Positions 1 to 14,459 of a stretch of DNA of 64,000 nt are shown one piece after another. The notes beneath the pieces are model-generated. The model was not told where the DNA came from. It saw nothing but the letters and a program-made list of their open reading frames with translations, and made no database searches. The position numbers and the translations under genes are program-made. Numbering within the stretch: the first letter of the stretch is position 1; every line of letters starts with the position of its first letter. The stretch covers positions 5,208,001-5,272,000 of the forward strand of contig NZ_JACBYV010000001.1 in the NCBI RefSeq assembly GCF_013408425.1, read 5' to 3'. This DNA is from Pseudomonas flavescens. GTDB taxonomy: Bacteria; Pseudomonadota; Gammaproteobacteria; Pseudomonadales; Pseudomonadaceae.

Positions 1-69
1 CGCCGAACGGGGCGCGGCGATTCTTTCTTTTGCGTACGATGTTGCTGAATCTTTCATGAGGTAAGTGCA

Positions 70-402
70 ATGAGTTTGACCGAAGCCCGTTTCCACGACC
101 TGGTCGATGCCGTGCAGCAGGCGGTGGAAGACATCTTCGACGACAGCGATCTGGATCTCGATCTGGAAAACTCCGCTGGCGTACTGACGGTGCGCTTCGA
201 AAATGGCTCGCAGCTGATCTTCAGTCGCCAGCCAGCGCTGCGTCAGCTCTGGCTGGCGGCCCGTTCCGGTGGGTTCCATTTCGACTACGACGAAGACAAC
301 CAGCGCTGGATCTGCGACACCAGCGACGAGTTGCTCAGCGAAATGCTCGATCGCATCGTGGTCGAGCAGTCCGGCGCCAGTCTCGAGTTCGATGAGATCT
401 GA
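70..402 (+). CDS. cyaY: Iron-sulfur cluster assembly protein CyaY (bacterial frataxin)
   Basis: This 110-residue protein matches bacterial frataxin in length and pattern. It has an acidic first helix (DIFDDSDLDLDLE), then a beta sheet with the aromatic run ending in GGFHFDYDEDNQRW. Frataxins bind iron through the acidic ridge and modulate IscS-dependent Fe-S cluster assembly in the cytoplasm. The ATG at 70 follows a GAGGTAAG ribosome-binding region. The DUF1289 gene starts 11 bp inside its 3' end, so the two are probably translated together. In Pseudomonas cyaY usually lies next to lppL-lysA, which would be just left of the window. Confidence 0.95.
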   Translation: MSLTEARFHDLVDAVQQAVEDIFDDSDLDLDLENSAGVLTVRFENGSQLIFSRQPALRQLWLAARSGGFHFDYDEDNQRWICDTSDELLSEMLDRIVVEQSGASLEFDEI

Positions 403-598
403 AGCCGCCGCTGATTCGGCGCTGGGCGAGGCGCCTGTCGCGTCGCCCTGTCGTCGGCGCTGCTGCCTGAACGAGGCCGACAGGTGCCTGGGTTGCGGGC
501 GTCTGCTGGCGGAAATTCTCGAGTGGGGCAATGCCGATGACGGGCGCCGTCGGGCCATTCGGGCGCTGGCCGAAGAGCGTCTGATGGCGGCGCCCTGA
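392..598 (+). CDS. DUF1289 family small Cys-rich protein
   Basis: The 68-residue product carries the DUF1289 pattern: SPCRRRCCLNEADRCLGCGR, then an E-x-x-x-W segment. The five cysteines suggest a small metal-binding or Fe-S related fold, but no function is established. The ATG at 392 overlaps the end of cyaY by 11 bp, which suggests translational coupling. A good intrinsic terminator follows at 649-684, so cyaY and this gene probably form one short transcription unit. A longer reading of the frame from 269 would lie wholly inside cyaY and is not favoured. Confidence 0.8.
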   Translation: MRSEAAADSALGEAPVASPCRRRCCLNEADRCLGCGRLLAEILEWGNADDGRRRAIRALAEERLMAAP

Positions 599-648
599 GG
601 CTGCCCTTGTTTATTTGGGTGGCTGTGTTACGGTCGGCTCAACCTGTG

Positions 649-684
649 CAAAACCCCGTCGTCTCGATGGGGTTTTGCTTTTTT
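649..684 (+). terminator. Rho-independent terminator after cyaY-DUF1289
   Basis: A perfect 9-bp stem CAAAACCCC / GGGGTTTTG with an 11-base loop is followed by CTTTTTT. It separates the cyaY unit from rnk. Confidence 0.8.
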
Positions 685-714
685 GGCGTCCAGCAAAGGA
701 GATATGCCCGCACC

Positions 715-1122
715 ATGGCCAGCACACCGTCCATCACCATTACCCGCCTCGATCTGCAGCGCCTGGAGCAATTGCTCGACAGCCTCGAAGATTTCGGCCC
801 GACTGCCGAAGCCTTGCAGGCCGAACTGGATCGAGCGGAGGTGGTCGGCCACGATCAGGTGCCGGCAGGCGTGGTCACCATGAATTCCCGCGTGCATTGC
901 CGCGAGGAAGGCAGTGGCAAGGACTATCACCTGACTCTGGTCTATCCCCAGGACGCTGGCGGTGAAGGCAAGGTGTCGATTCTCGCACCCGTTGGCACTG
1001 CATTGCTGGGGCTGAGCGTTGGCCAGCATATCGACTGGCCGGCACCCGGCGGCAAACAGCTCAAACTTGCCTTGCTGGCGGTGGAGTATCAGCCGGAAGC
1101 GGCGGGCGAATACGCCCGTTAA
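715..1122 (+). CDS. rnk: Nucleoside diphosphate kinase regulator Rnk (GreA/GreB-like)
   Basis: The 135-residue product has a short N-terminal coiled-coil region (about residues 1-50) and a C-terminal GreA/GreB-type FKBP-like domain (about 50-125, with VSILAPVGTALLGLSVGQ). This is the Rnk architecture. Rnk binds RNA polymerase near the secondary channel and was named for its effect on nucleoside diphosphate kinase levels and alginate production in P. aeruginosa. The start at 715 is chosen because an AAAGGAGA ribosome-binding site precedes it and the protein then has family length; the upstream extension reads through a terminator. It is adjacent to cyaY as in P. aeruginosa. Confidence 0.9.
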   Translation: MASTPSITITRLDLQRLEQLLDSLEDFGPTAEALQAELDRAEVVGHDQVPAGVVTMNSRVHCREEGSGKDYHLTLVYPQDAGGEGKVSILAPVGTALLGLSVGQHIDWPAPGGKQLKLALLAVEYQPEAAGEYAR

Positions 1123-1139
1123 AGCGCCTCGTATCATCT

Positions 1140-1201
1140 GACTCGGCTCGTGCCGTGCCGAGTCTTGCCTTCTGGCAGCCCGGGGCTACACCCGGGCTGC
1201 C
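1140..1201. terminator. Double hairpin between convergent genes, likely bidirectional terminator
   Basis: Two consecutive inverted repeats fill the gap between rnk and the convergent ABC transporter gene: GACTCGGC/GCCGAGTC at 1140-1164 and GGCAGCCCGGG/CCCGGGCTGCC at 1174-1201. The second resembles GTAGCCCGGG-type intergenic repeats common in Pseudomonas. Neither has a long T run, so termination is inferred. Confidence 0.55.
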
Positions 1202-1203
1202 GA

Positions 1204-2895
1204 TCAAGTCGGCAGCAGTTCCGGCGTCGCCGGTTTGCAAGCCGTCCCACATTCCTGCAGGTCGATGCTGCGTTCGAACAGGCGCTGCACCGCGGGCTGG
1301 TGGCTGACGCCGATCAGCGTGCAGGTGGGCAAGCGCTCTCGCAGGCGCGCGAGCAACCCGCAGGCCGCATGTTCGTCGAGCTGATTGGTGGCTTCGTCGA
1401 GGTACAGGGTGTCTGGGCGATAGAGCAGGGCGCGGGCCAGCGCCAGGCGCTGTTGCTCACCACCGGAAAGCTCTCTGCCCCATTCGGCTTCGCGGTCCAG
1501 CTCATGGATGAGATGGTCGAGCCCAACGTCCTGCAGCGCGCCAATCAGTTCCAGAACCTGGGGTATCTGCGTTGCCGGGTAGGCCAGTAACTGATCCAGA
1601 CGACCGCTGGCCAGGTAAGGTTTCTGCGGCAGCAGCAGGCTGCGCCCGCCCGGCAACTGCCAGCTGCCGCGGTGATGGGGCCAGAGGCCCATCAGGGTGC
1701 GCAGCAAGGTGGTCTTGCCCAGGCCGCTGGCGCCCGCCAGGCGCAGCCACTCACCAGGGCGAGCCTGCAGGGTCAGGCCGCACAGCAGCGCTTCGCCATT
1801 TGGGCGCAGCACATCCAGGCCGCAGGTGTTGAGCGCCTCGCCCTGGCTCAGTTCGACCGGCTCCAGCCGCTCCATGGCCTGCTGGAACTGGCCCAGGCGC
1901 TGGACCGTGGCGCTCCACTCCATCAGGGTGCGATAAGAGTAGATGAACCAGCTCAATGATCCGTGTACGGCGCCGAAGGCCGTGCGGATCTGCATCAACC
2001 CGCCCAGGGTGATGGTCTTGGCCAGGAACGCGGGTAGGGCGATGAACACGGGCACGATATTGCTGACCCGGTCGTAACCGACGGTGAATGTCCCCAGCTT
2101 CAGCTCACGGCGCATCAGGCCACGCCAGTTATCGGCTATGGCGGCGAAGCGCAGGCCCAGGCTCTGCCGCTCTGCCTGTTCGCCGCCGTACAGCGCGATC
2201 TGCTCGGCATGCTCGCGTTTGCGTAACAGGTCCGCACGAAAGGCCGCCTCGCTGCGTTGGCGCTCATAGTTGAGAGCGTGCAGTGGCTGGCCCAGCCAGT
2301 GAGTGACCAGCGTGCCGATCAGGGTATAGATGAGCACGGCCCAGACCAGGTATCCATCGAGGGTTACGCTGTAATCGCCGAGGGTGAAGGTCTGAGTACC
2401 CGAGAGCTGCCAGAGGACGCTGACGAAGGCGCCGATCTGCATGGTGTTGATGAACAACGATACGATCAGGCCGACGGTCTTGTCCGCCAGCAGATGCACA
2501 TCCTCGGCGATCCGCTGATCGGGGTGGTCCGGCTCGCCGCTCAGCCCCAGTCGGTAGTAGCGACGCTCACTCAGCCAGTGCTCGAGCATGTGATCGTTGA
2601 GGTGCTGGCGCCAGCGCAGGATCAGCGCTTTGGTCAACCAGTTCTTCGAGACGATCACCACCACCAGCGCACAGATTGCCAGTGCATAACTGCCCATGAG
2701 ATCGAGCAGCGCACTGCCGTCGAAGGTCGCCAGGGTGTCGTAGAACGTCTTGCTCCACGCGTTGATGTAGACGTTGACCTGCACGATGCCGATGCCCATG
2801 GCGAACACCGAAGCCAGTAGCAACCAGCCCGGCCAACCGGCGCGACTGGCCCAGAATGGGCGGGAAAGCCTGAGGAAAAGATGCAGGGTTCTCAT
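1204..2895 (-). CDS. YddA/FusD-like ABC transporter, fused permease and ATPase
   Basis: The 563-residue half-transporter has about five to six hydrophobic segments in residues 1-310, including the ABC_membrane_2 hallmark AAFRADLLRKREHAEQIALY. An ATPase domain follows with Walker A GASGLGKTT near residue 388, signature LSGGEQQR near 475 and Walker B TLYLDEAT near 495. This is the family of E. coli YddA and of FusD, which in the Fus system is proposed to move protease-generated fragments across the inner membrane. Its ATG overlaps the stop of the upstream M16 protease gene (ATGA), so the two are translationally coupled. The start at 2895 is preferred over an upstream extension that lies inside the protease gene. 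The cargo is unknown. Confidence 0.85.
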   Translation of the reverse strand: MRTLHLFLRLSRPFWASRAGWPGWLLLASVFAMGIGIVQVNVYINAWSKTFYDTLATFDGSALLDLMGSYALAICALVVVIVSKNWLTKALILRWRQHLNDHMLEHWLSERRYYRLGLSGEPDHPDQRIAEDVHLLADKTVGLIVSLFINTMQIGAFVSVLWQLSGTQTFTLGDYSVTLDGYLVWAVLIYTLIGTLVTHWLGQPLHALNYERQRSEAAFRADLLRKREHAEQIALYGGEQAERQSLGLRFAAIADNWRGLMRRELKLGTFTVGYDRVSNIVPVFIALPAFLAKTITLGGLMQIRTAFGAVHGSLSWFIYSYRTLMEWSATVQRLGQFQQAMERLEPVELSQGEALNTCGLDVLRPNGEALLCGLTLQARPGEWLRLAGASGLGKTTLLRTLMGLWPHHRGSWQLPGGRSLLLPQKPYLASGRLDQLLAYPATQIPQVLELIGALQDVGLDHLIHELDREAEWGRELSGGEQQRLALARALLYRPDTLYLDEATNQLDEHAACGLLARLRERLPTCTLIGVSHQPAVQRLFERSIDLQECGTACKPATPELLPT

Positions 2896-5678
2896 GTTTC
2901 GATGCCCTGCGCGGGAAGCACCTGCATGCGCACTTGATTGCCTTTCGGGAAAAGCTGGCGAGCCAGGCGCTTCAGGGCCGCAGGCTCGAGTGCCGCAGGC
3001 AGTCGATGCTGTTCGCTCAGGTAACGCGGGTCGTGCCATGCGCGCTCGCTGAGAATCAGGCGATGCAACTGGATGCCGGGATCCTCGCGACGCAACGCTT
3101 CCTGGCGGGTCAGCTCCTGGCGCAGGGCGGCGACGTGTTTCTCGTCGATGGCGTCGGGCAGGCTGGACAAGGTCCGTCGCGCCAGTTGCCAGAGCTCGTC
3201 GGCGCGTTGCGGGTCACTGCTGAATCTCAGCTCGCTGTCGATGCGCTGATGTTCGGGGCTCAGTTCACTGTCGAATTGCAGGCTGTAAACGCCTGCCGCT
3301 TCGCCGCGCAGGCGCCGCTTCAGCAGGCCGTTGGCGATCTCGCGCAGCGCCGCTACCCGGGCGGCATCCGCCGGGCTCCAAGGATGGGGCTGGAAGCTGC
3401 CCGCATAGAGGCTGGCGCGCGGTTCGCGAGCGATGGCCAGGGTGGCCTGGCGCTGACCGGGTTGCCGTGGGTTGGCCTTGCTGAGCAGTGGCTCGCCGCG
3501 CGGGATGCCTGCCAGATAACGGTCGACCAGCGCTTCCAGTTCCTGCTCCGGCATGTTGGCCATCAGGTAATAGGTCACTGGAGCCGCGGCCTGGCGGCGC
3601 CATTCCACTTCCAGTGCGGCGCGGCTGAGTGCGTCGAGGTCCTTGGTCGTTGGCGACTGCCAGTCATCCTCGCCCTGCTTGATTCTGCGCCAGGTCGCGT
3701 CTTGCTCGCTGCGCACGTGATCACGCCGCCGCAGCAGGCCTTCGCGCAGGTCGGCGAGGCTCTCGAGGTAGGCTTCTTCATCCAGAGCGCTGCGGGTCTG
3801 CTGCGCCTGATAGAGCGCCAGCAGGCTGCCCAGCTTGTCCACCGTGGCACTGCCCTGCGCCTCCAGGCGCTGCGGCCCTTGAGTGAACGACAGTTGCACG
3901 GCTTCGCGCCGTTTCCAGGCATTGAGCTGCTCATCGCTCCAGCCTTGGGGAGGTAGCTGCAGGGCCAGTTGATTGGCGATCTGCGCGCGCCAGGACTGCG
4001 CGCCCTGGTACAGAAAACCAGCGCTGGAATCGACGCGCAACTGCGCCTTGCCGTCCGCGCCCTCGGCACGTAGCCACACCAGGCGGTCGCCGTTGCTCAG
4101 TTGCCAGTGTTCGACCTTCTCGGCTGCGAAGCTGCGGCGTGTCTCGATGCTACCGGGCGGCGTGCTGCTTTCCAGGCTGGGAATGCTGAGCGCATGTTGT
4201 GCCACGGGGGGCTTTGGCGCTTCCAGGCGGGTAGCGGCGAACTGCAGCGCCTGCTGCTCGACGCGTGCGACATCAGGCAGCTTCAGCGGCGTGCCGCCTG
4301 GGGCGCTGAGTTGCAGCACCCGGTCCGGGCTGTCGAGCCAACTGACGATGCGCTGTTGCAGCTCGCGCTTGCCGATGCTGTCCAGATTGGTCAGGGCGTT
4401 GCGGGCGATGGCCTCGGGGTCTTGCAGCACCCGCTCGCCCAGGGTGGCGTCGTTGAGTTGTCGCACCCAGGCGTCGAAGTCTCGCGCTGCCGGTTTCGCC
4501 AGCATGCGCTCAGCGATCTGCCGCACCTCGTCCTTGACCGCTTTGACGTCCTCGTCGTGCAACGGGTGCTGGCGCAGCCGCTCGAGTTCGCGCAACAGGG
4601 TCTGCAGCGCCTGGTCGTGGCGCTGACCTTTGACGCTGGCGGCCACCGCCAGTACACCCGTACGGCGGCCAATCTGGGTTTTCACCGCTGTCAGGCTGCC
4701 TACGCCTTCGTCCAGGGGTTGGCGGCGCAACTGCCGTGACAATGCGGTGAGTGCCAGGCGATCCAGCAGTCGATCACGGCCGCCCGCAAGCGTCTGCTCG
4801 CGAATGTCCATCTGCTGGAAGCGCATCAGCAGAGCGACCTGGTTGCTGCCGCTCTGGCTGTCCTGCACGCGGAACACTTTCAGCTCGTCGTCCAGCGGCA
4901 GTTCGAGGTGCTCGCGCGGGGGACGTTCGCCCCGTTGCGCATGGCCGAAGTGGCGCTCGATATGCGCGATCATCTGCTGGGGATCGACGTCACCGACGAC
5001 ATTCAGCACCATGTTGTTCGGCAGGTACCAGCGCTGCTGGAACGCCTGCAGTGCCTGCAGTTGCGCCTGCTCGATGGCCTTGCGGTTGCCGATGGTGCGA
5101 TGCGCCGGATAACGGGAGCCGGTGCGCTGCGCCGCGGCACGTTTGGCGTTCATGCGCTGCGCGACACCCAGGCCACCTCGCCATTCTTCGATGACGATGG
5201 GCCGTTCGCGCTGCAGATCGTCCGCCGTGAAGTCGCCGGCGAAGGCCATCGTGGCCAGCGTTTTCAGCGACAGCTCGACACTCGCCGCCCCGTCAGGCGG
5301 GCTCAGCAGGTATTGCGTGCGCTCGTAGTTGGTGACCGCATTGAAGTGGCGGCCCTGTTGCCAGCCAGCCTTCTGCAGGCGCTGGCGTACATTCAGGGCG
5401 TCGCCACCACGGCTGTAGAACGCCAGGTGTTCGAGCATATGGGCGACGCCGACCTGATCGTCGGCCTCGTCCACCGAGCCGGCATGCACCGTCAGGCGCA
5501 TGTCCAGGCGGCCTTTCTGCGTATCGATGGGAATCAGGTTGTAGCGCAGGCCGTTGGGCAGTTCGCCACGGGTGACGACGGGGTGCCATTGCAGGGGCGT
5601 GTCCCCTGCAGGCAAATGGGTGCAGGCACCGAGCAGCAACGCTGCCAGTGCCGTGAACAGGGTTTTCACGGGATGCAT
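2892..5678 (-). CDS. PqqL/FusC-like periplasmic M16 zinc protease lipoprotein
   Basis: The 928-residue product starts with a lipoprotein signal peptide ending in lipobox LLGAC (Cys19). The inverted zinc motif HMLEH lies at His80/Glu83/His84, with a downstream IVIEEW segment around Glu164-165 that should supply the third ligand. Length and two-half M16 architecture match E. coli PqqL (about 930 residues) and FusC, periplasmic proteases that cut proteins imported through a TonB-dependent receptor. The ATG at 5678 follows an AAGG-type site and lies 13 bp downstream of the receptor stop. It is not a PQQ biosynthesis gene in this context: no pqq genes are nearby. Substrate identity is unknown. Confidence 0.88.
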   Translation of the reverse strand: MHPVKTLFTALAALLLGACTHLPAGDTPLQWHPVVTRGELPNGLRYNLIPIDTQKGRLDMRLTVHAGSVDEADDQVGVAHMLEHLAFYSRGGDALNVRQRLQKAGWQQGRHFNAVTNYERTQYLLSPPDGAASVELSLKTLATMAFAGDFTADDLQRERPIVIEEWRGGLGVAQRMNAKRAAAQRTGSRYPAHRTIGNRKAIEQAQLQALQAFQQRWYLPNNMVLNVVGDVDPQQMIAHIERHFGHAQRGERPPREHLELPLDDELKVFRVQDSQSGSNQVALLMRFQQMDIREQTLAGGRDRLLDRLALTALSRQLRRQPLDEGVGSLTAVKTQIGRRTGVLAVAASVKGQRHDQALQTLLRELERLRQHPLHDEDVKAVKDEVRQIAERMLAKPAARDFDAWVRQLNDATLGERVLQDPEAIARNALTNLDSIGKRELQQRIVSWLDSPDRVLQLSAPGGTPLKLPDVARVEQQALQFAATRLEAPKPPVAQHALSIPSLESSTPPGSIETRRSFAAEKVEHWQLSNGDRLVWLRAEGADGKAQLRVDSSAGFLYQGAQSWRAQIANQLALQLPPQGWSDEQLNAWKRREAVQLSFTQGPQRLEAQGSATVDKLGSLLALYQAQQTRSALDEEAYLESLADLREGLLRRRDHVRSEQDATWRRIKQGEDDWQSPTTKDLDALSRAALEVEWRRQAAAPVTYYLMANMPEQELEALVDRYLAGIPRGEPLLSKANPRQPGQRQATLAIAREPRASLYAGSFQPHPWSPADAARVAALREIANGLLKRRLRGEAAGVYSLQFDSELSPEHQRIDSELRFSSDPQRADELWQLARRTLSSLPDAIDEKHVAALRQELTRQEALRREDPGIQLHRLILSERAWHDPRYLSEQHRLPAALEPAALKRLARQLFPKGNQVRMQVLPAQGIET

Positions 5679-5691
5679 GGAGCGCCTTTTC

Positions 5692-8568
5692 TTAGAATTG
5701 GTAGCCGACTTCGAGCCAATATTGGCGGCCAACTTCGTAGCTGATGCTGCCGCCTGTCTCACTGACGATTTTGTTCACCTTGTCAGTGACGTTCGTGATA
5801 TCTGCGGCGACGTACAAGGATTGATCCTTGAAGGTTGGCGTCTGCCACTTCACGCGCATATCCCAGGTGGGTGCGCCGCCGACCTTGCCCACCGCGTAAT
5901 TGGCATAACTGCTGCCATCGACCAAGATATTCGAAGGAGAGCCGCTGAAAATCTGCTCGTAGGGGCCCCGGTAGCGGAAGAAGTTACTAACGGTCAGGTT
6001 CAGTGCTGGTATGGCAGTAATCGTATTGAGACGAGCCGTCCAGGGACGGTTGAAGTTCCCTGACGGCAGGTCGCTGTAAGGGATCAGTTTACCGTCGAAA
6101 TACACATCGACATCATTGAGCCGATCCTCGCTGAACACCGTTTCGTAATCCGGATAGCTGGTATAAGTCTGGTTCCAGTCAAAGGCTGCCTGCATTCGGG
6201 TGCTAGTGCCGGCCAGTGTCAGTTCTTGCAGCGGAGTTATGGCCAAGGTGACAGTTTTGCTCCGGCTTTCACCGGCATTGGTATAAACGTAGTAATTGCT
6301 GATTTCCCCAACGTTGTCACCGGCTTCGAGGCCCAGGTAATTAGCACGACTGCGTACAACCTGATTCTTGCCTTCCCGGTTCACATATTTCAGCTCGAAG
6401 AGCACATCCTTGAATACTTGACTGAGGCCAACCATCCACTCGTCATCATAGGGGATGTCGATCTGGCGGAATGAGCTCTCATCCACTCCGTAGGAGACCA
6501 GAGGGTCGAAGTCGGGAATCACATCGTTGGTCACCCGGGCTCGGGTCTGGCGCGCCCGCAGCGATTCACGGCCATCGGCCAGGCGGTATTTAAATAAATT
6601 GCGCCCGTAATAACGGTTGAGCCCGGCGCTGAAGACAGTGCTTTGATCTCCGAACAGGTCATAGCTTGCCGCGAAACGCGGGGCCAAGGTTTTCTTGTCC
6701 ATATAATCATCTGCATCAAAGCGCAGCCCGGGGCGCAACGTCAGACGGTCAATGCGAATTTCATCTTCAAGGAATAGTCCGAGGCTGGTTTGTTCCAGTT
6801 CGATCTTCCCTGCGCGGTAGTAATTGAGGAATCCGAAGTACTGGCGCTCCAGTGTGCCATCACGAGCCGTGCCAATGGAGCAATATTCACTGTCAAGGCT
6901 ACCGCTGACGGTTTGGCACGTTGAAGTGTTGTTCGGTGACAAGGTCACCCTTCTGGGCGTGGTAGCAGTCCATGCATCTTGCATCTGTTCATAGCTGGCC
7001 TTCTGGTAGTTGAGCTCCAGGCCAGTTATCAGTTTGTGCTCTGTGTTGAACAGCATGGTGGGGAGCAATTCTGCTTTCAGGGCATATTTAGCTCCGGTCT
7101 GCTGTTGCTCCAGATTTCCCATTCCTCCTTCTACGCTGGTAGTGGATGCGCCCCAGTTTTTCTGATCGGACCATCGCCACAGCTTGTTGACGTTGCTGTC
7201 GGAATTTCTGGAGGTCTGGGAGAAGTTGTAAGAGAGTTTATGGGTGTATGTCGCGTTATCGCCTTTCCAGATCCCTTGTAGCGCGCCGATGTAGCCGCCT
7301 TGCTCTATGGTGAAATTGGAGTTCTTTTGGTTTTCCTTGAAATATTCTCCAGTCTGGGGCGCATCGACCAATGTGAACGTGAGATCCAATCGTTCGTTGG
7401 GCGTCCAGAAGCCCTTGAGCATATAGTTGTCGATTTCTCGATGCTGGGTCTTCTTGCGTCTGTCGCCCTCACTCGTGAAACCATCGCTGTATGCGTAAAG
7501 AGGTATTTCCGACGTCTTCTGTACGAAGTTTCCGATGAGGCCGAAGTTCTCGGTAACGTGCCCCTCGAGTACGACACGCTTGGTTATTTTCTTGAATTCT
7601 GGTTGGTTGGCATAGTTACTCGAGTACTTGAAGGCTTCCTCATCGCCGCTTATATGGTAATTGGTCCATTCCGAACGGCTCATGCCTACCGATACCTTGC
7701 CGTGGAAGTCTTCGGTTGGGCGACGCGTGATCGCATCGACCACACCACCGTTGAATCCTCCGAATTCTGCGGACACGTTGCTATCGTAGACCTTCACTTC
7801 CTCGAGCAGGTCGGCGTCCAGAGCGATGCCGAATGAATTGCTGGGTAAGTTGTAGAGACCGTTGATATCCCTGCGTGAGCCGCTGCTGGCGCCAGGGTCG
7901 AGATCGTTGTTGATGCTTACCCCGTCGATCATGAAGTTGTTTTGGTAGAACTTGGCGCCATTGATGCTGATGTCGGCTGGGTTCAGTTCTCCGGGGGTAT
8001 TGGAGCTCTGCTGGGTGGTGTCGAATCGGACGCTGGGGTGCATTTTCAACAGCGTCGTCAGGTCACCATTGGCCCCGGCGAAATTCTCGATCGCCCTGCG
8101 GTCTATTACGGTCTCGCCTTGAAAGGCATTTTCAGGCGTTGCCAGCACCACTGTGTTGGCCAATTCAAACGCCCTGTTCTGGCTCGCCAACTGATGAAAG
8201 GTCACCACCTGCTGCCCGTATTCCCAGCCCACGTTGCTGCCATCGAGCAGTCGTGACAGTGCCAGTTCGCTGCTCATCTGCCCGCGTACCGCATTGCCGC
8301 GCAGGTGGCCGACCAGGCTTGGGTCGACGCTCACCTGCAGGCCGCTCTGCTGGGCGAAGGCGATCAGTGCGTCGGCCAGGGGTTGGGCATCGATGGCGAA
8401 GCTGTGCTGGCGTTGCAGCAAGGCGCTGGCAGGCTCGGTGTTTTCCTGCGCGTGGGCGTTGTGCATGGGCAGCGTGGCGCACAGGCTCAGCAGCCCCAGG
8501 CTGATGGAAGCGCCGAGTTTCCGGGCGCCTGTAGAGGGATGTTTGAGCCGGTGCACCTGCTTTTTCAT
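5692..8568 (-). CDS. TonB-dependent transducer-receptor with STN signalling domain
   Basis: The 958-residue protein has an Arg/Lys-rich signal peptide ending near AHA, then a Secretin/TonB N-terminal (STN) domain at about residues 40-125 (HSFAIDAQPLADALIAFAQQSG). A plug domain follows (NFMIDGVSINNDLDPG, EVKVYDSNVSAEFGGFNGGVVDAITRR), then a long beta-barrel ending in a terminal Phe (YWLEVGYQF). The STN domain marks receptors that signal through a FecR anti-sigma factor, and the fecI/fecR-like pair directly upstream fits this. The ligand is unknown. Large stretches, for example 6200-7600, are visibly more AT-rich than the flanking housekeeping genes, which suggests a different evolutionary history. 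The ATG at 8568 has a GGGGAAG site upstream. Confidence 0.9.
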   Translation of the reverse strand: MKKQVHRLKHPSTGARKLGASISLGLLSLCATLPMHNAHAQENTEPASALLQRQHSFAIDAQPLADALIAFAQQSGLQVSVDPSLVGHLRGNAVRGQMSSELALSRLLDGSNVGWEYGQQVVTFHQLASQNRAFELANTVVLATPENAFQGETVIDRRAIENFAGANGDLTTLLKMHPSVRFDTTQQSSNTPGELNPADISINGAKFYQNNFMIDGVSINNDLDPGASSGSRRDINGLYNLPSNSFGIALDADLLEEVKVYDSNVSAEFGGFNGGVVDAITRRPTEDFHGKVSVGMSRSEWTNYHISGDEEAFKYSSNYANQPEFKKITKRVVLEGHVTENFGLIGNFVQKTSEIPLYAYSDGFTSEGDRRKKTQHREIDNYMLKGFWTPNERLDLTFTLVDAPQTGEYFKENQKNSNFTIEQGGYIGALQGIWKGDNATYTHKLSYNFSQTSRNSDSNVNKLWRWSDQKNWGASTTSVEGGMGNLEQQQTGAKYALKAELLPTMLFNTEHKLITGLELNYQKASYEQMQDAWTATTPRRVTLSPNNTSTCQTVSGSLDSEYCSIGTARDGTLERQYFGFLNYYRAGKIELEQTSLGLFLEDEIRIDRLTLRPGLRFDADDYMDKKTLAPRFAASYDLFGDQSTVFSAGLNRYYGRNLFKYRLADGRESLRARQTRARVTNDVIPDFDPLVSYGVDESSFRQIDIPYDDEWMVGLSQVFKDVLFELKYVNREGKNQVVRSRANYLGLEAGDNVGEISNYYVYTNAGESRSKTVTLAITPLQELTLAGTSTRMQAAFDWNQTYTSYPDYETVFSEDRLNDVDVYFDGKLIPYSDLPSGNFNRPWTARLNTITAIPALNLTVSNFFRYRGPYEQIFSGSPSNILVDGSSYANYAVGKVGGAPTWDMRVKWQTPTFKDQSLYVAADITNVTDKVNKIVSETGGSISYEVGRQYWLEVGYQF

Positions 8569-8612
8569 GGTCTTCCCCGAACTGGCCAAGCGGCCTAATT
8601 GAAAAGCTAATG

Positions 8613-8677
8613 CGAATCTGTATCGATTCGTGTTCGAGGCAATGACGCAGCGGCCCGACGAATTTTCAGGAATTCGT
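8613..8677 (-). promoter_or_regulatory. Upstream region of the receptor operon with two inverted repeats
   Basis: Between the receptor start and the fecR-like stop there are two perfect inverted repeats: CGAATC/GATTCG with a 6-base spacer at 8613-8630 and ACGAATT/AATTCGT with a 6-base spacer at 8658-8677. On the minus strand a GAAAAT followed after 14 bases by CGTC resembles ECF-type -35/-10 elements and would be a candidate promoter for the cognate sigma factor. This reading is tentative. Confidence 0.4.
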
Positions 8678-8721
8678 GAATTATTTTTTATTTATCGGAA
8701 AAACCCGGCTTGCGAGCCCTG

Positions 8722-9705
8722 TCAGGGGTGGCGCTTGATCACCCGCAGCCACGGTGTCCAGATGCTGACCGTGCCCTGATAGGGCTGAATGACCGCACGC
8801 AAGGCCGCGTCCGGATCGGCCAGGGCGTAGACGCCGGTAATGCGCTGCTCGCCCAGTGCCGCATCGCGCAGGGATACCTTGCCGGGCAGGTAGGGACGCA
8901 GTTCCTCCAGTACATCGCTGATACGCGCATCGCGCACCACCAACTGGCCTTTCTGCCAGGCTGCGATCTGGCTGACGGGAAGCGTGTCGCGTGTGACTTC
9001 ATGGCTACCACGCTGCCAGCGCAGGCGATCACCCGCGCTCAATGCGTCTGCCAGCGTGGTGTCATTTTCCTCTACACGCACCGAGCCATGTTGTACCGCT
9101 ACGGCCAGCCCGGTTTGTCGCAGCGCGACGTTGAATGCCGTGCCGGTCACGGTGATTCGCAGCGGTCGGGCATCCACGCTGAACGGCCGGGCCTGGTCCG
9201 GAGCCACTTCGAAGAACGCCTGACCGGCCAGCAGGCAGACTTCGCGCTGACCATCGCTGTAGTCCACGGAGATCGCCGATTCGCTGTCCAGGTGTATGCG
9301 GCTGCCGTCTTCGAGTTCCACTGTGCGCTGTTGGCCAAGGCCGGTGCGGTAGTCGCTCTGCAGGGCAATGTAGGCGCCGGGGGCGATGACCACTGCCAGG
9401 CAGGCGGCCAGTGCGCCTGCCAGCAGGCCGGGCCAGCGGCGTCGACGCGGGCGCGCTGGTGGCACGGCGGCCGTTGTGTGTGCCGCCAGGGTCGGTTGCG
9501 GTGGGGCTTGTGGCTCATCCGCGAGTGCAGCGGCCTGGGCCATGCCGGTGATTCTCCAGACCCGCTCCGCCTTGCGATAGGCCTCGGCGTGGCTGTCGTC
9601 GATCGACAACCAGGCCGCCAGGTCGCTGCGCAGCCCGGTATCCTCCGGGCTCTGCTGGACGCGCAATAGCCAGTCCAGTGCGGTATGTCTGAGATTGCCG
9701 GTCAT
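8722..9705 (-). CDS. FecR-like anti-sigma factor, sensor of the iron-linked cassette
   Basis: The 327-residue product has an N-terminal DUF4880 region (ALDWLLRVQQSP... AWLSIDDSHAEAYRKAERVWRITG), one hydrophobic membrane segment (LLAGALAACLAVVIAPGAY), and a periplasmic FecR domain (GQQRTVELEDGSRIHLDSES... VDARPLRITVTGTAFNV). FecR proteins hold or activate an ECF sigma factor and contact the STN domain of the receptor. It lies between the sigma-factor gene and the receptor gene, the usual order. The start at 9705 gives family length and the typical first residues, but it lacks a clear ribosome-binding site; an in-frame start at 9771 is possible. Confidence 0.88.
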   Translation of the reverse strand: MTGNLRHTALDWLLRVQQSPEDTGLRSDLAAWLSIDDSHAEAYRKAERVWRITGMAQAAALADEPQAPPQPTLAAHTTAAVPPARPRRRRWPGLLAGALAACLAVVIAPGAYIALQSDYRTGLGQQRTVELEDGSRIHLDSESAISVDYSDGQREVCLLAGQAFFEVAPDQARPFSVDARPLRITVTGTAFNVALRQTGLAVAVQHGSVRVEENDTTLADALSAGDRLRWQRGSHEVTRDTLPVSQIAAWQKGQLVVRDARISDVLEELRPYLPGKVSLRDAALGEQRITGVYALADPDAALRAVIQPYQGTVSIWTPWLRVIKRHP

Positions 9706-9795
9706 GGGCGGGACGGGGTCAGGTGAAAAGGTGCAAGAGGTTCGCACAGTCCAATGCCCTGAGCAAAGCACGTAGCAGCCAGCGATTTGGCGAAC

Positions 9796-10308
9796 TCATC
9801 CATTGGCCTGCTCCAGCCGATCCGCGCAGTGGCACAGCGCCTGATGCACCAGTTGATGGGCCAGGCCGACGGAGATGCCCAAGGTGATCGCGATGTGCTG
9901 CAAGGTGTGACCTTCCAGGCGATGCATTTCGAAGGCCCGGCGTACGCGCTCCGGCAGCTCTGTCAGGGCCGTGTTGACGATGCGCAGTTCGGTGATGCTG
10001 CTGGCCTGCTGTTCGGGGCCGGGGCTGTCATCGGAGAGCGTTTCCAGCAGGCTTGCGCTACCCGGCTGGCGGCGCTCGGTGACGCTGCGTCGACTCAGGT
10101 CGAAGGCCAGGTTGCGCACGATGCGATAGAGGTAGCCGACTGGGTGGTCGATTGCCGCTTCGGCACTGCCGCGGCTGTTGAAACGCAGCCAGGCCTCCTG
10201 CACCACGTCTTCGGCCTGGGCACGGCAACTGACGAGAGAGGCGGCATAGTCCACCAGCGCGTTGCGGTGGGCGAGATAGAGGTCGAGTTTCTGGCTGGGT
10301 GGAGACAC
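9796..10308 (-). CDS. FecI-like ECF sigma factor
   Basis: The 170-residue protein has ECF sigma region 2 (about residues 10-80: AEDVVQEAWLRF, PVGYLYRIVRNLAFDLSRR) and region 4 (about 105-160: LPERVRRAFEMHRLEGHTLQHIAITLGIS). The wording of both regions is that of FecI-like iron-starvation sigma factors. It is probably released by the downstream FecR protein when the receptor binds ligand, and then transcribes the receptor-protease-transporter genes. The frame opens with GTG at 10308 with no strong ribosome-binding site, and no in-frame ATG lies nearby. A Fur-box-like sequence sits about 65 bp upstream. Confidence 0.9.
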   Translation of the reverse strand: MSPPSQKLDLYLAHRNALVDYAASLVSCRAQAEDVVQEAWLRFNSRGSAEAAIDHPVGYLYRIVRNLAFDLSRRSVTERRQPGSASLLETLSDDSPGPEQQASSITELRIVNTALTELPERVRRAFEMHRLEGHTLQHIAITLGISVGLAHQLVHQALCHCADRLEQANG

Positions 10309-10359
10309 GATGATGACTGCCGGAAGCCGTGCACAGCAGGCGTGCCACAGCGAAAGCGC

Positions 10360-10389
10360 ATGTTAGCTCATGTTGAGAATTGTTATCAA
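10360..10389 (-). promoter_or_regulatory. Predicted sigma-70 promoter with overlapping Fur box
   Basis: On the minus strand TTGATA (10389-10384), an 18-bp spacer and TAACAT (10365-10360) form a plausible promoter for the ECF sigma gene. The 15-bp TGATAAC-A-ATTCTCA at 10388-10374 matches the 7-1-7 Fur consensus TGATAAT-A-ATTATCA at 13 of 15 positions and covers the -35 element. Iron-dependent repression is the natural inference. Confidence 0.65.
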
Positions 10390-10396
10390 TAATCGT

Positions 10397-13237
10397 CTAG
10401 AGGGCACGCAGGGCATTGTTCAAGGCTTCTTCCAGGCTGGCCTTGTAACGCAGGTAATGCACCACCGACGGTTGTCGATCTCCCAGCAGGGCGGAAAGAT
10501 CCAGGTCGGTTATGTAACAGGGATAGCGCTCTGCCTCGCTGCGTAGGGCGAGAATATGCCGGGCCACGTTGCTGAACAGGCTGTCGCCGTATTCGAGCTC
10601 GGAGAATTCCCGGTGGTTGCAGTACAGGCTGATGTAGGCGCGCTGGCCGCTACCCGGTTCGACGATCGCCTGGACATCGTAGAACGGTTGGCTGACCTGC
10701 GTCAGTGGCGCGGGGCGCAGCTCCAGGCGCTGGGCACGCAGCGGCGCGGCGGGTTGCAACTGCTGATAGACGATCTCCAGTGGCGCCTGTGGGCTCTCCA
10801 GGGTGAGCGCGGCATTGCGCCGGTACAGCAGCGACTGCAGAAACCGCTGCAGGGGCGCCAGCAAGCTGGCTTCGTCGTGGAACGGCGCCTGGGTCCGCCA
10901 TACCGCACCATGTTCGTCGAGCACGGTGATCTGTGCCTGGGGCTCGCCTTCCTGCAGTCGATAGAACACCTGAATGCAGGCCGGGCGGCTGGCGTTGAGG
11001 ATCAGTGCCAGGTCTTCGCCCTCCAGCACATTGCGGTCCAGGCGAAGCGGGTTGTACTCGGCGCGGTCCTGGGCGAGGTGTTCGAGCAGGGCGGGCAGGT
11101 CATCCAGCGTGGTGTGGCGAACCTCGCCAGGCGCCAACTCGAGCATGTGGTAACGACGGGTGATCTGCAGCAGATAGCGTTGACGCTGATCACTGACGAG
11201 GCCGGCGATCAGCTCGCGCACCAGCTCTTCGACGCGCTCGACGATGGCTGCCGCGCGATTGCGGCAGAAGCAGTGCACCCGCACGCTGGGCCGCTCACCA
11301 TGGGTGGGCAATGCGTTGAGCAGATCGGTCAGGCAGTCGAGCAGGGCGTTGGCGCCGTCGTAGCGGTCGACCAGCAGCTCGTTCCAGCTGTTCAGGGTTA
11401 TCTGGTCGAGGGTCAGCACCAGGTTTTCGCGAACACCGGAGTAACCCAGAGGGTCCGTACGTTCGCTGGTCATGTGCACGTTCATCTGGCTGTGCTGCTT
11501 GAGCGGATCGATGCCGACGTTGACCAGCAGCATGACCTGCGCTGGCTGGCGGGCACGCAGCAGGGCGCTTTCCGCAATGCTGTCCAGCGGCATGGGCAGC
11601 GCCTGGTTCAGGCTGGCGAGCAGGTGGCCGAGTTCGAATTCGCTGAGGTCGCTATCGCCCGGGTGCAGTGACAGGTGCGTACCGCTGTCGATGACGCCGT
11701 TGCGGTGTGCCCAGGCGAGCAGTTCGATCAGGCTGCGGGCTTGCCGCAGGGGTGCGAAGTCCAGCCATTCCTGAGGCCCGAGGCTGCCATTGAACAATGC
11801 CCAGCGCTCACCCTTCGGCGTGGGGCAGTGCACCAGCGTCAGGGTGTCCTCGCCGAGGTCGGGGGCGATGCCGGGGTTGATGAATTCGACCTTGCCGGCA
11901 CGGCGCTCGAACGCTGCGTAGAGGCGGCGGCCGAGTACCGCCAGTTCGCGGTTGTCGGGGGCTGCGTCGTCAGTCTGGCTGCGCGCGAACTGGGTCAGGA
12001 AGCGATAGCTGTAGTTGAGTTCGTTGACCAGCGCCCGGCGCTCAGCGCTTACCTGGCGGACCTTCCACTGGCTGCGGCTGTCGAGCATGACCAACTGGCG
12101 CTCGCCCCAGCCCCACTCGGCGGTCAGGCGTTCGAGCAGCAGGCGCTGCCAGCTCTTGGCGCGGTTGCGCGGCGGTTTGCTGACCTTCTTGTTGACCTTC
12201 AGATACAGGCAGCGGCGCATCAGCTCCAGGCGCTCGGGCTCGCCGCGTGCCACAAGGTATTCCTCCAGGCGCCGATAGATCAGCACATAGGGGTCGAGTT
12301 CATCGAGATCCAGCTGACCGTCGTACACCGACTGCTTGAAGCGCAGCGACAGGCATTCGACCCTCGGGTGCTCGCTGGCATAAACCTCGGTCAGAGAGAG
12401 CTTGAGAGCCGACTTGTAGGGCGACTCGATGCCCTTGAACAGTTGCCACATGCCGGCACCGATGAACTCTCCTGAAGGCACGTGGGCCAGGTGGCCGAAG
12501 TCGATGACATCCTCTTCGCGGACGAAACGCTTGCTCAGCAGTGTCGCGGTGAACTGTTCGTAGCGGTGCTCGTCGACAGCGGGCACCAGCCACCATAGCG
12601 GCGTGCGGCCGCCCAGCCAGATCGCGGTTCGGTAGAACTCGTCGAGCAGCAGGAAGTGCTGGGTGGTGCCGCAGTCGTCCGAGGTGAGCTGCGCCTCGCG
12701 TTCTCCGGCTCGAAAGCGCTGCGGGTCGATGAGGAAGAAGTGCGCTTCGGTGCCCTGTGTAGACGCCCAGCTTTGCAACAGCTCGCACTTGCGGCGCAGT
12801 TCGTCGCGGGCTGCGGCAGTCAGATCGCTGGCGTGGCAGACCCACAGGTCCATGTCGCTTTGCTCGGCCTGCGCCACCGTGCCCAGGCTGCCCATCAGGA
12901 ACAGGCCATGGATCGGCGTGGGCGCGGGGCCGCGGGCCGGCTTGTAGGCGAACGAGCGAGTCAGGCGCTGTGCCTCGGCGAGCAGCTCGGCACTTGGCTC
13001 GTAGCCACTCAGGCCTGCGGGTGTCTGGGCGGATACATAGCCGGGCAGCAGTGGGTGATTGACGTGGAACAGCAGCGGCAGCAGCGTGAGTACCCGTTGC
13101 TGGCGCGTCGACAGCGCCTGCATGGCGCGTAGCTGACGCCCGTGATTGACGCGCATGAAGCGTGCGCGCAGCTGAGTGAGCACCTTGCGGTCGATGCCAT
13201 CGTCGATATTGGGTCGCAGGGGCAGATGGCGCGTCAT
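10397..13237 (-). CDS. cyaA: Class I adenylate cyclase
   Basis: The 946-residue protein is a class I (enterobacterial-type) adenylate cyclase making cAMP from ATP, which in Pseudomonas acts through Vfr. The N-terminal catalytic half carries the nucleotidyltransferase motif GS at 116-117 with Asp128 and Asp130 (SDMDLWV). The C-terminal half is the regulatory region. The start at 13237 gives the conserved N-terminus with PNIDDGIDRKVL. The gene ends 8 bp from the Fur box of the iron-linked cassette, which therefore begins directly at the 3' end of cyaA. Confidence 0.93.
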   Translation of the reverse strand: MTRHLPLRPNIDDGIDRKVLTQLRARFMRVNHGRQLRAMQALSTRQQRVLTLLPLLFHVNHPLLPGYVSAQTPAGLSGYEPSAELLAEAQRLTRSFAYKPARGPAPTPIHGLFLMGSLGTVAQAEQSDMDLWVCHASDLTAAARDELRRKCELLQSWASTQGTEAHFFLIDPQRFRAGEREAQLTSDDCGTTQHFLLLDEFYRTAIWLGGRTPLWWLVPAVDEHRYEQFTATLLSKRFVREEDVIDFGHLAHVPSGEFIGAGMWQLFKGIESPYKSALKLSLTEVYASEHPRVECLSLRFKQSVYDGQLDLDELDPYVLIYRRLEEYLVARGEPERLELMRRCLYLKVNKKVSKPPRNRAKSWQRLLLERLTAEWGWGERQLVMLDSRSQWKVRQVSAERRALVNELNYSYRFLTQFARSQTDDAAPDNRELAVLGRRLYAAFERRAGKVEFINPGIAPDLGEDTLTLVHCPTPKGERWALFNGSLGPQEWLDFAPLRQARSLIELLAWAHRNGVIDSGTHLSLHPGDSDLSEFELGHLLASLNQALPMPLDSIAESALLRARQPAQVMLLVNVGIDPLKQHSQMNVHMTSERTDPLGYSGVRENLVLTLDQITLNSWNELLVDRYDGANALLDCLTDLLNALPTHGERPSVRVHCFCRNRAAAIVERVEELVRELIAGLVSDQRQRYLLQITRRYHMLELAPGEVRHTTLDDLPALLEHLAQDRAEYNPLRLDRNVLEGEDLALILNASRPACIQVFYRLQEGEPQAQITVLDEHGAVWRTQAPFHDEASLLAPLQRFLQSLLYRRNAALTLESPQAPLEIVYQQLQPAAPLRAQRLELRPAPLTQVSQPFYDVQAIVEPGSGQRAYISLYCNHREFSELEYGDSLFSNVARHILALRSEAERYPCYITDLDLSALLGDRQPSVVHYLRYKASLEEALNNALRAL

Positions 13238-13358
13238 GCTCGGGCTCGGCCGGGTGATGAGCAAGACTACAGTCGTGGAGTGCCCTGTCGCAATCGTTGG
13301 CTGGACAGCCTGTGGGAGAGGGGCCTGCCACCATCAGGGCGGCAGGCGTTGCTGGGGC

Positions 13359-13607
13359 TCAGGCAGGTTGTGGAACGGTGAGGATGGCCCGCAGGCCATG
13401 GGCGTGCTCGGCCGCTTCGTGGCCCAGGCGGGTCAGATAGCCGCCATCGGCGAGGCTGATCAGCCCCTTGTCATGCAGGCGCCCGGCAGCGGCGACGGCG
13501 GAGGGGGCGGCATCGTGGTGGTGGATCTTCAATCCCTCCTGACCATTGTCCAGATTGAACAGCAAAAGGATTTCCAGTTCGGCGACCAGTTCGGCGGTAA
13601 AGGCCAT
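13359..13607 (-). CDS. TIGR02647 family small conserved protein
   Basis: The 82-residue protein begins MAFTAELVAELEILLLFNLDNGQEGLKIHHHDA, the pattern of the TIGR02647 family, found next to cyaA in Pseudomonas and sometimes annotated as DNA-binding. The N-terminal Leu-rich helix and the segment resembling a winged-helix (RLHDKGLISLADGGYLTRLG) fit a small DNA-binding fold, but the function is not established. The ATG at 13607 has an AGGAG site upstream. Confidence 0.75.
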   Translation of the reverse strand: MAFTAELVAELEILLLFNLDNGQEGLKIHHHDAAPSAVAAAGRLHDKGLISLADGGYLTRLGHEAAEHAHGLRAILTVPQPA

Positions 13608-13700
13608 TGGTGACTCCTGCCTGTTGTTGTCGTGCACGGCGCAGGCCGTGGGCTTCGGGGGTGTCTGGCGCCCCGCAGCCTGAGTGTAGTCAAGCCTCCA

Positions 13701-14459
13701 TCAATTTGCCGGGGCGTGCTGCCATTGATCGAGAATCTGCCGATAGCGTCCATTGCGATGGATGGTTCGCATGCCCTGTTCGAAGCGTTCGACCAACCGC
13801 GTCGCATCGGGTTGGTGGCGCGAGACGCTCAAGTACAGCTTGGGGCGGTGCAGGGTCGCTACTGCCACGAACTGCCCCTGCAGCTCGGGGTTCTCGCGAA
13901 ACAGCGCCTGGGCGGTGCCGCGGTAGGCGGCGACGAAATCGACCCGGCCATGCTGCAGCATCAGAAAGCCGCTGAGGTCACGGCGCACCGGCACGCGAAT
14001 CACCTGCGGATCGTCATCCAGGCGTGGCCCGTACTCGTAGCCGATGGTCACCGCGACCTTGCGTCCGCGCAGGTGCTCCAGGCGTTCATCGGGGGCGCTC
14101 TCGCGTGGCGCCCAGAGCAGGATGTCATCACTGAACAGCGGCTCCCGCGGGATCAGGAAATCACTGTCGATGCGCTGGTCCGGTGAGGTGTTGAAGCATG
14201 CCGCCAGTTGGCCGTCGTGAGCCATTTGCATGCAGCGGGAATAGGGGTAGGGAACCAGCTCGATGGGCGTATCGGCTGCCGCGAAGGCTGCCTTGACGAT
14301 ATCCACCGACATGCCCTGAATCTTGCCGTCGCGGTAGGCGGTGTACGGGTACCAGTCGTCTTCTGCACCGATGCGCAGCGCTTCCCGGCTCGATGCGACA
14401 CCGCTCGCTGCGATCAGCAGCAGCGCAAGGCAGCAGCGGTTGAAGGTGGAATGGCGCAT
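13701..14459 (-). CDS. Periplasmic solute-binding protein, amino-acid type (SBP_bac_3)
   Basis: The 252-residue protein has a cleavable signal peptide (to about SGVASSREA) and a family-3 extracellular solute-binding fold: LRIGAEDDWYPYTAYRDGKIQGMSVDIVKAAF, then LRGRKVAVTIGYEYGP. These proteins bind polar amino acids or related small molecules. No ABC permease or ATPase gene accompanies it, so it may serve a transporter encoded elsewhere or act in sensing. The ATG at 14459 removes a five-residue extension before the Arg-rich signal start. The ligand cannot be predicted. Confidence 0.82.
   Translation of the reverse strand: MRHSTFNRCCLALLLIAASGVASSREALRIGAEDDWYPYTAYRDGKIQGMSVDIVKAAFAAADTPIELVPYPYSRCMQMAHDGQLAACFNTSPDQRIDSDFLIPREPLFSDDILLWAPRESAPDERLEHLRGRKVAVTIGYEYGPRLDDDPQVIRVPVRRDLSGFLMLQHGRVDFVAAYRGTAQALFRENPELQGQFVAVATLHRPKLYLSVSRHQPDATRLVERFEQGMRTIHRNGRYRQILDQWQHAPAN

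Follow-up and report, generated by a model that had tools for sequence, protein, structure and literature searches.

Clusters of FusA homologues with FusC have already been reported from Pseudomonas in the accessible text of PMC6793856, which also places cytochrome c peroxidases beside FusA homologues lacking FusC and proposes that the peroxidase frees the iron cofactor by reduction. For the fec genes of Escherichia coli, the available part of PMC9249621 describes Fur boxes ahead of fecI as well as at the promoter of the receptor gene. The locus studied here lies in a stretch of 64,000 nucleotides from Pseudomonas flavescens (contig NZ_JACBYV010000001.1, positions 5,208,001 to 5,272,000; hereafter the window), belonging to a genome represented by a single contig of 5.95 Mb. 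It comprises five genes, fecI-fecR-receptor-M16 protease-ATP-binding cassette (ABC) transporter, at window positions 1204-10389, all on the minus strand. We suggest that it probably represents a Fus-type protein-import operon under FecI/FecR cell-surface signaling and iron control, in which the plug and barrel of the receptor form an exchangeable cassette, a proposal that rests on sequence comparisons. We know of no established cargoes of Fus-like systems outside Pectobacterium.

Gene organization and family assignment

The five genes and the main parts of their products, in window coordinates, are the following.

9796..10308, minus strand: fecI-type sigma factor of the extracytoplasmic function (ECF) class, 170 amino acids, GTG start (Pfam Sigma70_r2 and r4_2; NCBIfam ECF sigma)
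8722..9705, minus strand: fecR-type anti-sigma factor, 327 amino acids (Pfam DUF4880 at residues 9-49, FecR domain at 118-210)
5692..8568, minus strand: TonB-dependent receptor, predicted FusA type, with an N-terminal signaling domain, 958 amino acids (phmmer, Foldseek and structural model)
8185..8427, minus strand: STN signaling domain of the receptor, about residues 48-128 (Pfam STN; residues 46-127 in the model)
8140..8166, minus strand: TonB-box-like stretch ELANTVVLA, residues 135-143 (by eye, against the usual TonB-box form)
5695..8124, minus strand: receptor plug and barrel, residues 149-958, apparently exchanged among relatives (sequence comparisons)
2892..5678, minus strand: FusC-type M16 protease, 928 amino acids, lipobox LGAC with Cys19 (phmmer, 647 bits against 6b03)
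5427..5441, minus strand: zinc-binding motif HMLEH of the protease, residues 80-84 (alignment)
1204..2895, minus strand: ABC transporter, 563 amino acids, with a membrane part of the ABC_membrane_2/SbmA kind fused to an ATPase (Pfam)

The initial annotation had described this gene order on the minus strand, with a tight gap and an overlap, and had ascribed the receptor, protease and transporter to a combined Fus/PqqL-YddAB type. All five genes were recovered in that arrangement, with 13 bp between the receptor and protease genes and an overlap of 4 bp between the protease and transporter genes; of the family assignment, the Fus part stands and the PqqL part does not. By phmmer, the receptor matches FusA (4zgv) with 306 bits and YddB with 232 bits, the next match reaching 34 bits, and a Foldseek search with its predicted model ranks FusA first (E 7e-62) and YddB second. 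The model was built on an alignment of the window receptor with 50 of the 53 listed receptors and has a predicted local distance difference test (pLDDT) score of 75 and a predicted template modeling (pTM) score of 0.71; by sequence and predicted fold, the receptor is assigned to the FusA type. The protease scores 647 bits against 6b03 (named 'Putative zinc protease'), which we take to be FusC, as opposed to 155 bits against PqqL (6ofs), and shares 40% identity with its counterpart in a Fus-type receptor-M16-ABC locus of Dickeya. On these scores membership of the PqqL type was ruled out and the protease is assigned to the FusC type, and in the profile and structure comparisons neither protease nor receptor fell among unrelated families.

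Since many genomes occur in two collections, counts of distinct loci or proteins are given after removal of identical sequences. Residues H80, E83 and H84 are invariant across 11 aligned proteases, and HxxEH is present in 58/58 distinct proteases of the window's type; a lipobox-like motif occurs in 57 of these 58, as against 0/4 enterobacterial proteases. The best PDB sequence match of the transporter is 6tqe (267 bits), presumably Rv1819c, a carrier of hydrophilic molecules; SbmA-like proteins transport peptides. The FecR product reaches 108 bits with the NCBIfam FecR model, under its equivalog cut-off of 385. The STN region is modeled as a separate N-terminal domain of the receptor, and a match to STN at E 0.01 was found in 44 of 51 aligned receptors, three of the 51 being enterobacterial. 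A second STN domain lies elsewhere in the window, at 53266-53409 on the plus strand, within an open frame of 735 amino acids (L006).

The 4-bp overlap between protease and ABC genes recurs in 55 of the 56 distinct loci of the window's type that have both genes, the only exception being L039, where the protease frame is broken. It is not special to this type, because it is shared by the three enterobacterial loci (3/3) with an ABC gene. A scan of window positions 1-14000 against Rfam gave no match.

Promoter-like motif and Fur-like boxes

Three predicted regulatory elements accompany these genes.

8644..8668, minus strand: predicted FecI-dependent promoter TGAAAA-N15-CGTC, 100 nucleotides before the receptor start (upstream alignments and survey)
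8606..8630, minus strand: conserved Fur-like element just downstream of the receptor promoter (upstream alignments)
10374..10389, minus strand: Fur-like box before fecI (conserved among relatives)

Control by FecI and FecR, which had been proposed from gene order, gains independent support from the motif before the receptor and from the Fur-like box before fecI; the latter corresponds to the Fur box of the initial annotation. When the upstream regions of 12 cyaA-site loci and of 19 further loci were aligned, a single conserved block emerged before the receptor, TGAAAA-N15-CGTC. In the form TGAA[AG]A-N14-16-CGTC, this block precedes the receptor in 66/66 loci with an adjacent fecI and in 8/8 without one, and after removal of duplicates it is present, as TGAA[AG]A-N15/16-CGTC, in 58/58 distinct loci of the window's type, a count that is in part not independent because some of the loci counted had been used to derive the pattern. 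Elsewhere in the same loci, the motif occurs at a background rate of 0.0065 per 300 bases; it was found in none of 49 distinct 300-base regions before fecI (0/49), and it is absent from the enterobacterial (0/4), PqqL-type (0/5) and Roseibium (0/1) loci. The stricter form TGAAAATT-N13-CGTC has two copies in the window's own genome, one here and one overlapping the start of another gene. Distinct counts for this motif and for the Fur-like boxes leave out receptors shorter than 700 amino acids, with the exception of L076.

All eight genomes without an adjacent fecI-fecR pair keep a fecI of 61-67% identity. In seven of them this gene shares the receptor's contig, at a distance of 10-28 kb upstream, and in G298 it is on a different contig; in six of the eight a fecR was seen beside the distant fecI. 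In the P. cichorii/viridiflava group (L169, L170-L171, L172, L173 and L175), other genes stand between fecI-fecR and the receptor, including in L172 a phytase gene and ExbD. The receptor has kept its promoter-like motif despite the separation from the presumed sigma gene. A loss of FecI/FecR control in this group was considered and rejected, as fecI is still present.

A second copy of the motif is seen at the fecI-fecR junction in 49/66 junctions, or 37/50 distinct ones (e.g., L064:5873). This copy was set aside, since it is absent from the window and the stretch in question may encode an N-terminal extension of FecR.

The 16-base pattern of the Fur-like box before fecI has one exact match in the genome. 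Compared with the Fur core, 48 of 49 fecI upstream regions contain a stretch with at most three mismatches, vs. 5 of 245 random 150-base pieces; for the receptor-promoter regions, the corresponding counts with Fur cores are 23/58 vs. 3/300 random 60-base pieces.

Exchange of receptor and signaling parts

The operon lies between cyaA and the convergent genes rnk and cyaY, and the same five genes occupy the cyaA-rnk site in ten loci from named species or metagenome-assembled genomes (MAGs; L064-L072 and L093). Closest among named loci are those of Pseudomonas daroniae, P. seleniipraecipitans and P. flavescens, with a protease identity of 82-86% in the contig scan described below. Between the window and its same-site relatives, barrels are 49-75% identical, proteases 70-86% and transporters 79-91%; the barrel of L093 (37% identity) was set aside, its receptor frame being broken.

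The clearest pair is formed by strains PA15 (L069) and PA27 (L070), whose operons share 84-98% DNA identity per 200-bp segment outside the receptor, apart from one segment at 78% in the protease gene and a gap of 221 bases upstream of the receptor gene; over most of the receptor itself the values are 56-74%. At 45-bp resolution, identity drops at about codon 99 and returns at about codon 954. Related strains thus appear to have swapped the receptor and kept the remaining operon. The reverse case, judged from sequence identities, is a swap of the signaling parts in P. cuatrocienegasensis (L066). Compared with nine loci of the site, its FecI (53%), FecR (40%) and STN domain (41%) are as low as those of other groups (58, 49 and 48%), and its plug (83%), barrel (66%), protease (76%) and transporter (85%) are at the level seen within the group (78, 60, 76 and 83%). 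Among 78 locus pairs with a transporter identity of at least 88%, which are not mutually independent, barrels are below 67% identical in 25 and above 76.5% in 53; because none falls between these values, the receptor types look discrete.

Distances were compared across 41 of 56 loci, 15 being dropped for a missing gene, non-adjacent genes or a short frame. Given protease and transporter, the distance of the STN domain follows that of FecR (partial r 0.57, permutation p 0.001) and follows the adjoining plug weakly (0.11, p 0.054). A clean partition, in which the STN domain always travels with FecR, is opposed by several results: the identity break between L069 and L070 falls inside the STN domain, a weak relation to FecR holds for the plug as well (0.20, p 0.012), the STN domain follows the M16 protease given FecR and FecI (0.16, p 0.001), and several pairs (e.g., L084-L118) show it diverging together with the barrel. 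On these comparisons such a split is not general; the parts of the operon are exchangeable, with variable break points.

Distribution of the operon

We surveyed 298 genomes of the genus for protease matches at E 1e-20. A match to the M16 protease was present in 28 of them, namely 22 of the FusC type (the window's own included), one remnant and five PqqL-like proteases of 26-27% identity. The order across Pseudomonas, which the initial annotation had proposed to check, is kept: of the remaining 21 loci with a FusC-type protease, 18 have the five genes in the same order and on the same strand, and for this reason we consider the arrangement to exceed chance. In L045 and L056, fecI-fecR lie farther upstream, and in L057 an ABC gene is missing from that place on the strand in question.

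In an even sample of the class, a FusC-type protease was found in 0/368 other genomes at E 1e-60. A contig scan, limited to the 80 best of its 121 relatives and so to 73 distinct loci, located this protease in Dickeya, Klebsiella, Erwinia, Tatumella, Pseudothauera and Stutzerimonas, and among plasmids (15 records) the best relative is 36.5% identical. The enterobacterial Fus-type loci (Dickeya, Klebsiella, Erwinia, Tatumella) gave no fecI-fecR match in the stretches fetched, and in them the match to the receptor starts only at residue 119-140.

Some loci are incomplete or of uncertain attribution. In the remnant locus L058 (G025), the first half of fecI stands directly before the last part of the protease gene and an intact ABC gene; the receptor seems to have been deleted, because the half fecI directly adjoins the protease end. 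In Pseudothauera nasutitermitis (L076:9140-9916), the receptor frame encodes 279 amino acids with most of the barrel missing, and protease and ABC genes are intact. The operons recorded for Pantoea sp. Ap-967 (L084) and a Paucimonas MAG (L086) are close to those of Pseudomonas, their FecI being 99 and 92% identical, respectively, to Pseudomonas loci; the record names may be wrong.

Related operons

In P. dryadis, a receptor of 46% identity lies upstream, followed by a di-heme cytochrome c peroxidase (PF03150) and then by the complete protease operon. A search of 296 genomes of the genus with this receptor at E 1e-90 gave 31 genomes with a match, 22 of the protease type and nine others, and the nine FusA-like receptors without a protease (9/9) all stand in the order fecI-fecR-receptor-di-heme peroxidase. 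This sister operon is located as follows.

L098:1204-5213 and L208-L216: fecI-fecR-FusA-like receptor-di-heme cytochrome c peroxidase

By eye, the promoter regions of the sister operons show a related form, TGGAA(A/G). The PqqL-like loci of Pseudomonas (L059-L063) are ordered receptor-ABC-protease; their receptor bears an STN domain and their fecI-fecR pair is convergent, the sigma factors having been assigned by a Pfam run on two of the five.

Proposed function and alternative explanations

Under iron shortage, Fur would release fecI-fecR, as the box suggests. A foreign cargo protein, probably taken up for the iron it contains, would then bind the barrel of the FusA-type receptor, whose STN domain, by analogy with its family, would signal via FecR and free FecI, and FecI would transcribe receptor, protease and ABC genes from the conserved promoter, of which the motif is observed. 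Aided by a TonB protein encoded elsewhere, the receptor would bring the cargo into the periplasm, the FusC-type lipoprotein protease, which by the lipoprotein sorting rule probably sits on the periplasmic side of the outer membrane, would cut it, and the ABC transporter would take up the product, a peptide or an iron cofactor. If plug and barrel form an exchangeable cassette between signaling and processing parts, the same machine could therefore receive different cargo. As a more tentative extension, in which our confidence is somewhat less than even, the system may represent a modular protein piracy: a foreign protein is sensed and its import and digestion are switched on, new prey is reached by a swap of plug and barrel, and the processing part is replaceable, being either protease and ABC transporter or di-heme peroxidase.

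Besides the partial dependence of the motif count and the variable break points already described, further points weigh against this interpretation. The STN domain of the receptor scores 22.1 bits (E 1.4e-4), under the Pfam gathering cut-off of 28.4, the Fur-like box before fecI has three mismatches to the 13-base Fur core, and the cluster contains no TonB (FusB-like) gene.

An alternative that we consider unlikely retains the signaling, with a peptide or small protein as the cargo, used for nitrogen, as a cofactor or as a signal, so that protease and SbmA-like transporter would serve to take in peptides. The ABC_membrane_2/SbmA kind of the transporter fits this explanation, and the wide variation of the barrel would suit many cargoes, but the Fur-like boxes, which lie ahead of fecI and close to the promoter of the receptor, point to iron, as does the di-heme peroxidase of the sister operon, for which release of an iron cofactor is proposed in the accessible text of PMC6793856. 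Less probable again is a receptor for a siderophore or other small ligand, with protease and transporter in a housekeeping or protective role such as the destruction of bacteriocins entering through the receptor; the ligands for which FecI/FecR pairs with STN receptors are best known are siderophores and heme (PMC9249621, in the part available), and selection through bacteriocin or phage attack could likewise favor exchange of the receptor between fixed neighbors. A PqqL/YddAB-type system would have the same three kinds of genes, and YddB is the second nearest structure, but the scores of the protease and the distant, differently ordered PqqL-like loci of five other genomes of the genus make it scarcely credible.

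For the Fus-type operon with FecI/FecR control that we favor, a cargo-responsive switch would provide a simple assay, as a reporter on the conserved promoter should respond only to the right protein. Discrete receptor types in near-identical operons would likewise amount to natural swap experiments on the determinants of cargo.

Comparison with described systems

The elongation factor G of the window's own genome starts MARTTPINRY, and PDB entry 2XEX is presumably also an elongation factor G. The 'ferredoxin receptor FusA' of P. plecoglossicida (PMC8981516, in its accessible part) appears to be this elongation factor, also named fusA, and is not relevant here, because the 2,148-bp amplicon, the primer start and the PDB match 2XEX fit elongation factor G. 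In the literature searched there is no description of FecI/FecR coupling to FusA-FusC; the main text of PMC6793856 contains neither 'FecR' nor 'anti-sigma', and 'sigma' only in a supplier's name, while its figures and S1 table, outside the text searched, may draw such a coupling.

As in the Pectobacterium Fus system and the Pseudomonas cluster of PMC6793856, so far as the accessible text describes them, a FusA-type receptor, a FusC-type protease and an ABC transporter are encoded here in one run. The window operon departs from Fus in several respects: its receptor carries an STN domain and is preceded by a promoter-like motif, fecI-fecR stand upstream, its protease has a lipobox, and its cluster lacks a FusB-like TonB gene. 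E. coli YddB-PqqL-YddA is built from the same three broad kinds of protein (receptor, M16 protease and ABC transporter), but the protease and receptor of the window are nearer FusC and FusA. The operon resembles FecI-FecR-FecA in its sigma factor, anti-sigma factor and STN receptor and in having Fur-like boxes ahead of fecI and at the promoter of the receptor; whereas systems of the FecA type use an importer dependent on a periplasmic binding protein, the window operon encodes a protease and an ABC transporter of exporter fold. The pairing of FusA with a peroxidase is common to PMC6793856, in the part available, and the sister operons, which differ from that report in having fecI-fecR upstream in all nine cases and in standing in tandem with the protease operon in P. 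dryadis. What is new here, on the basis of these comparisons, is the promoter-like motif before the receptor, the exchange of receptors, and the peroxidase sister operon linked to fecI-fecR.
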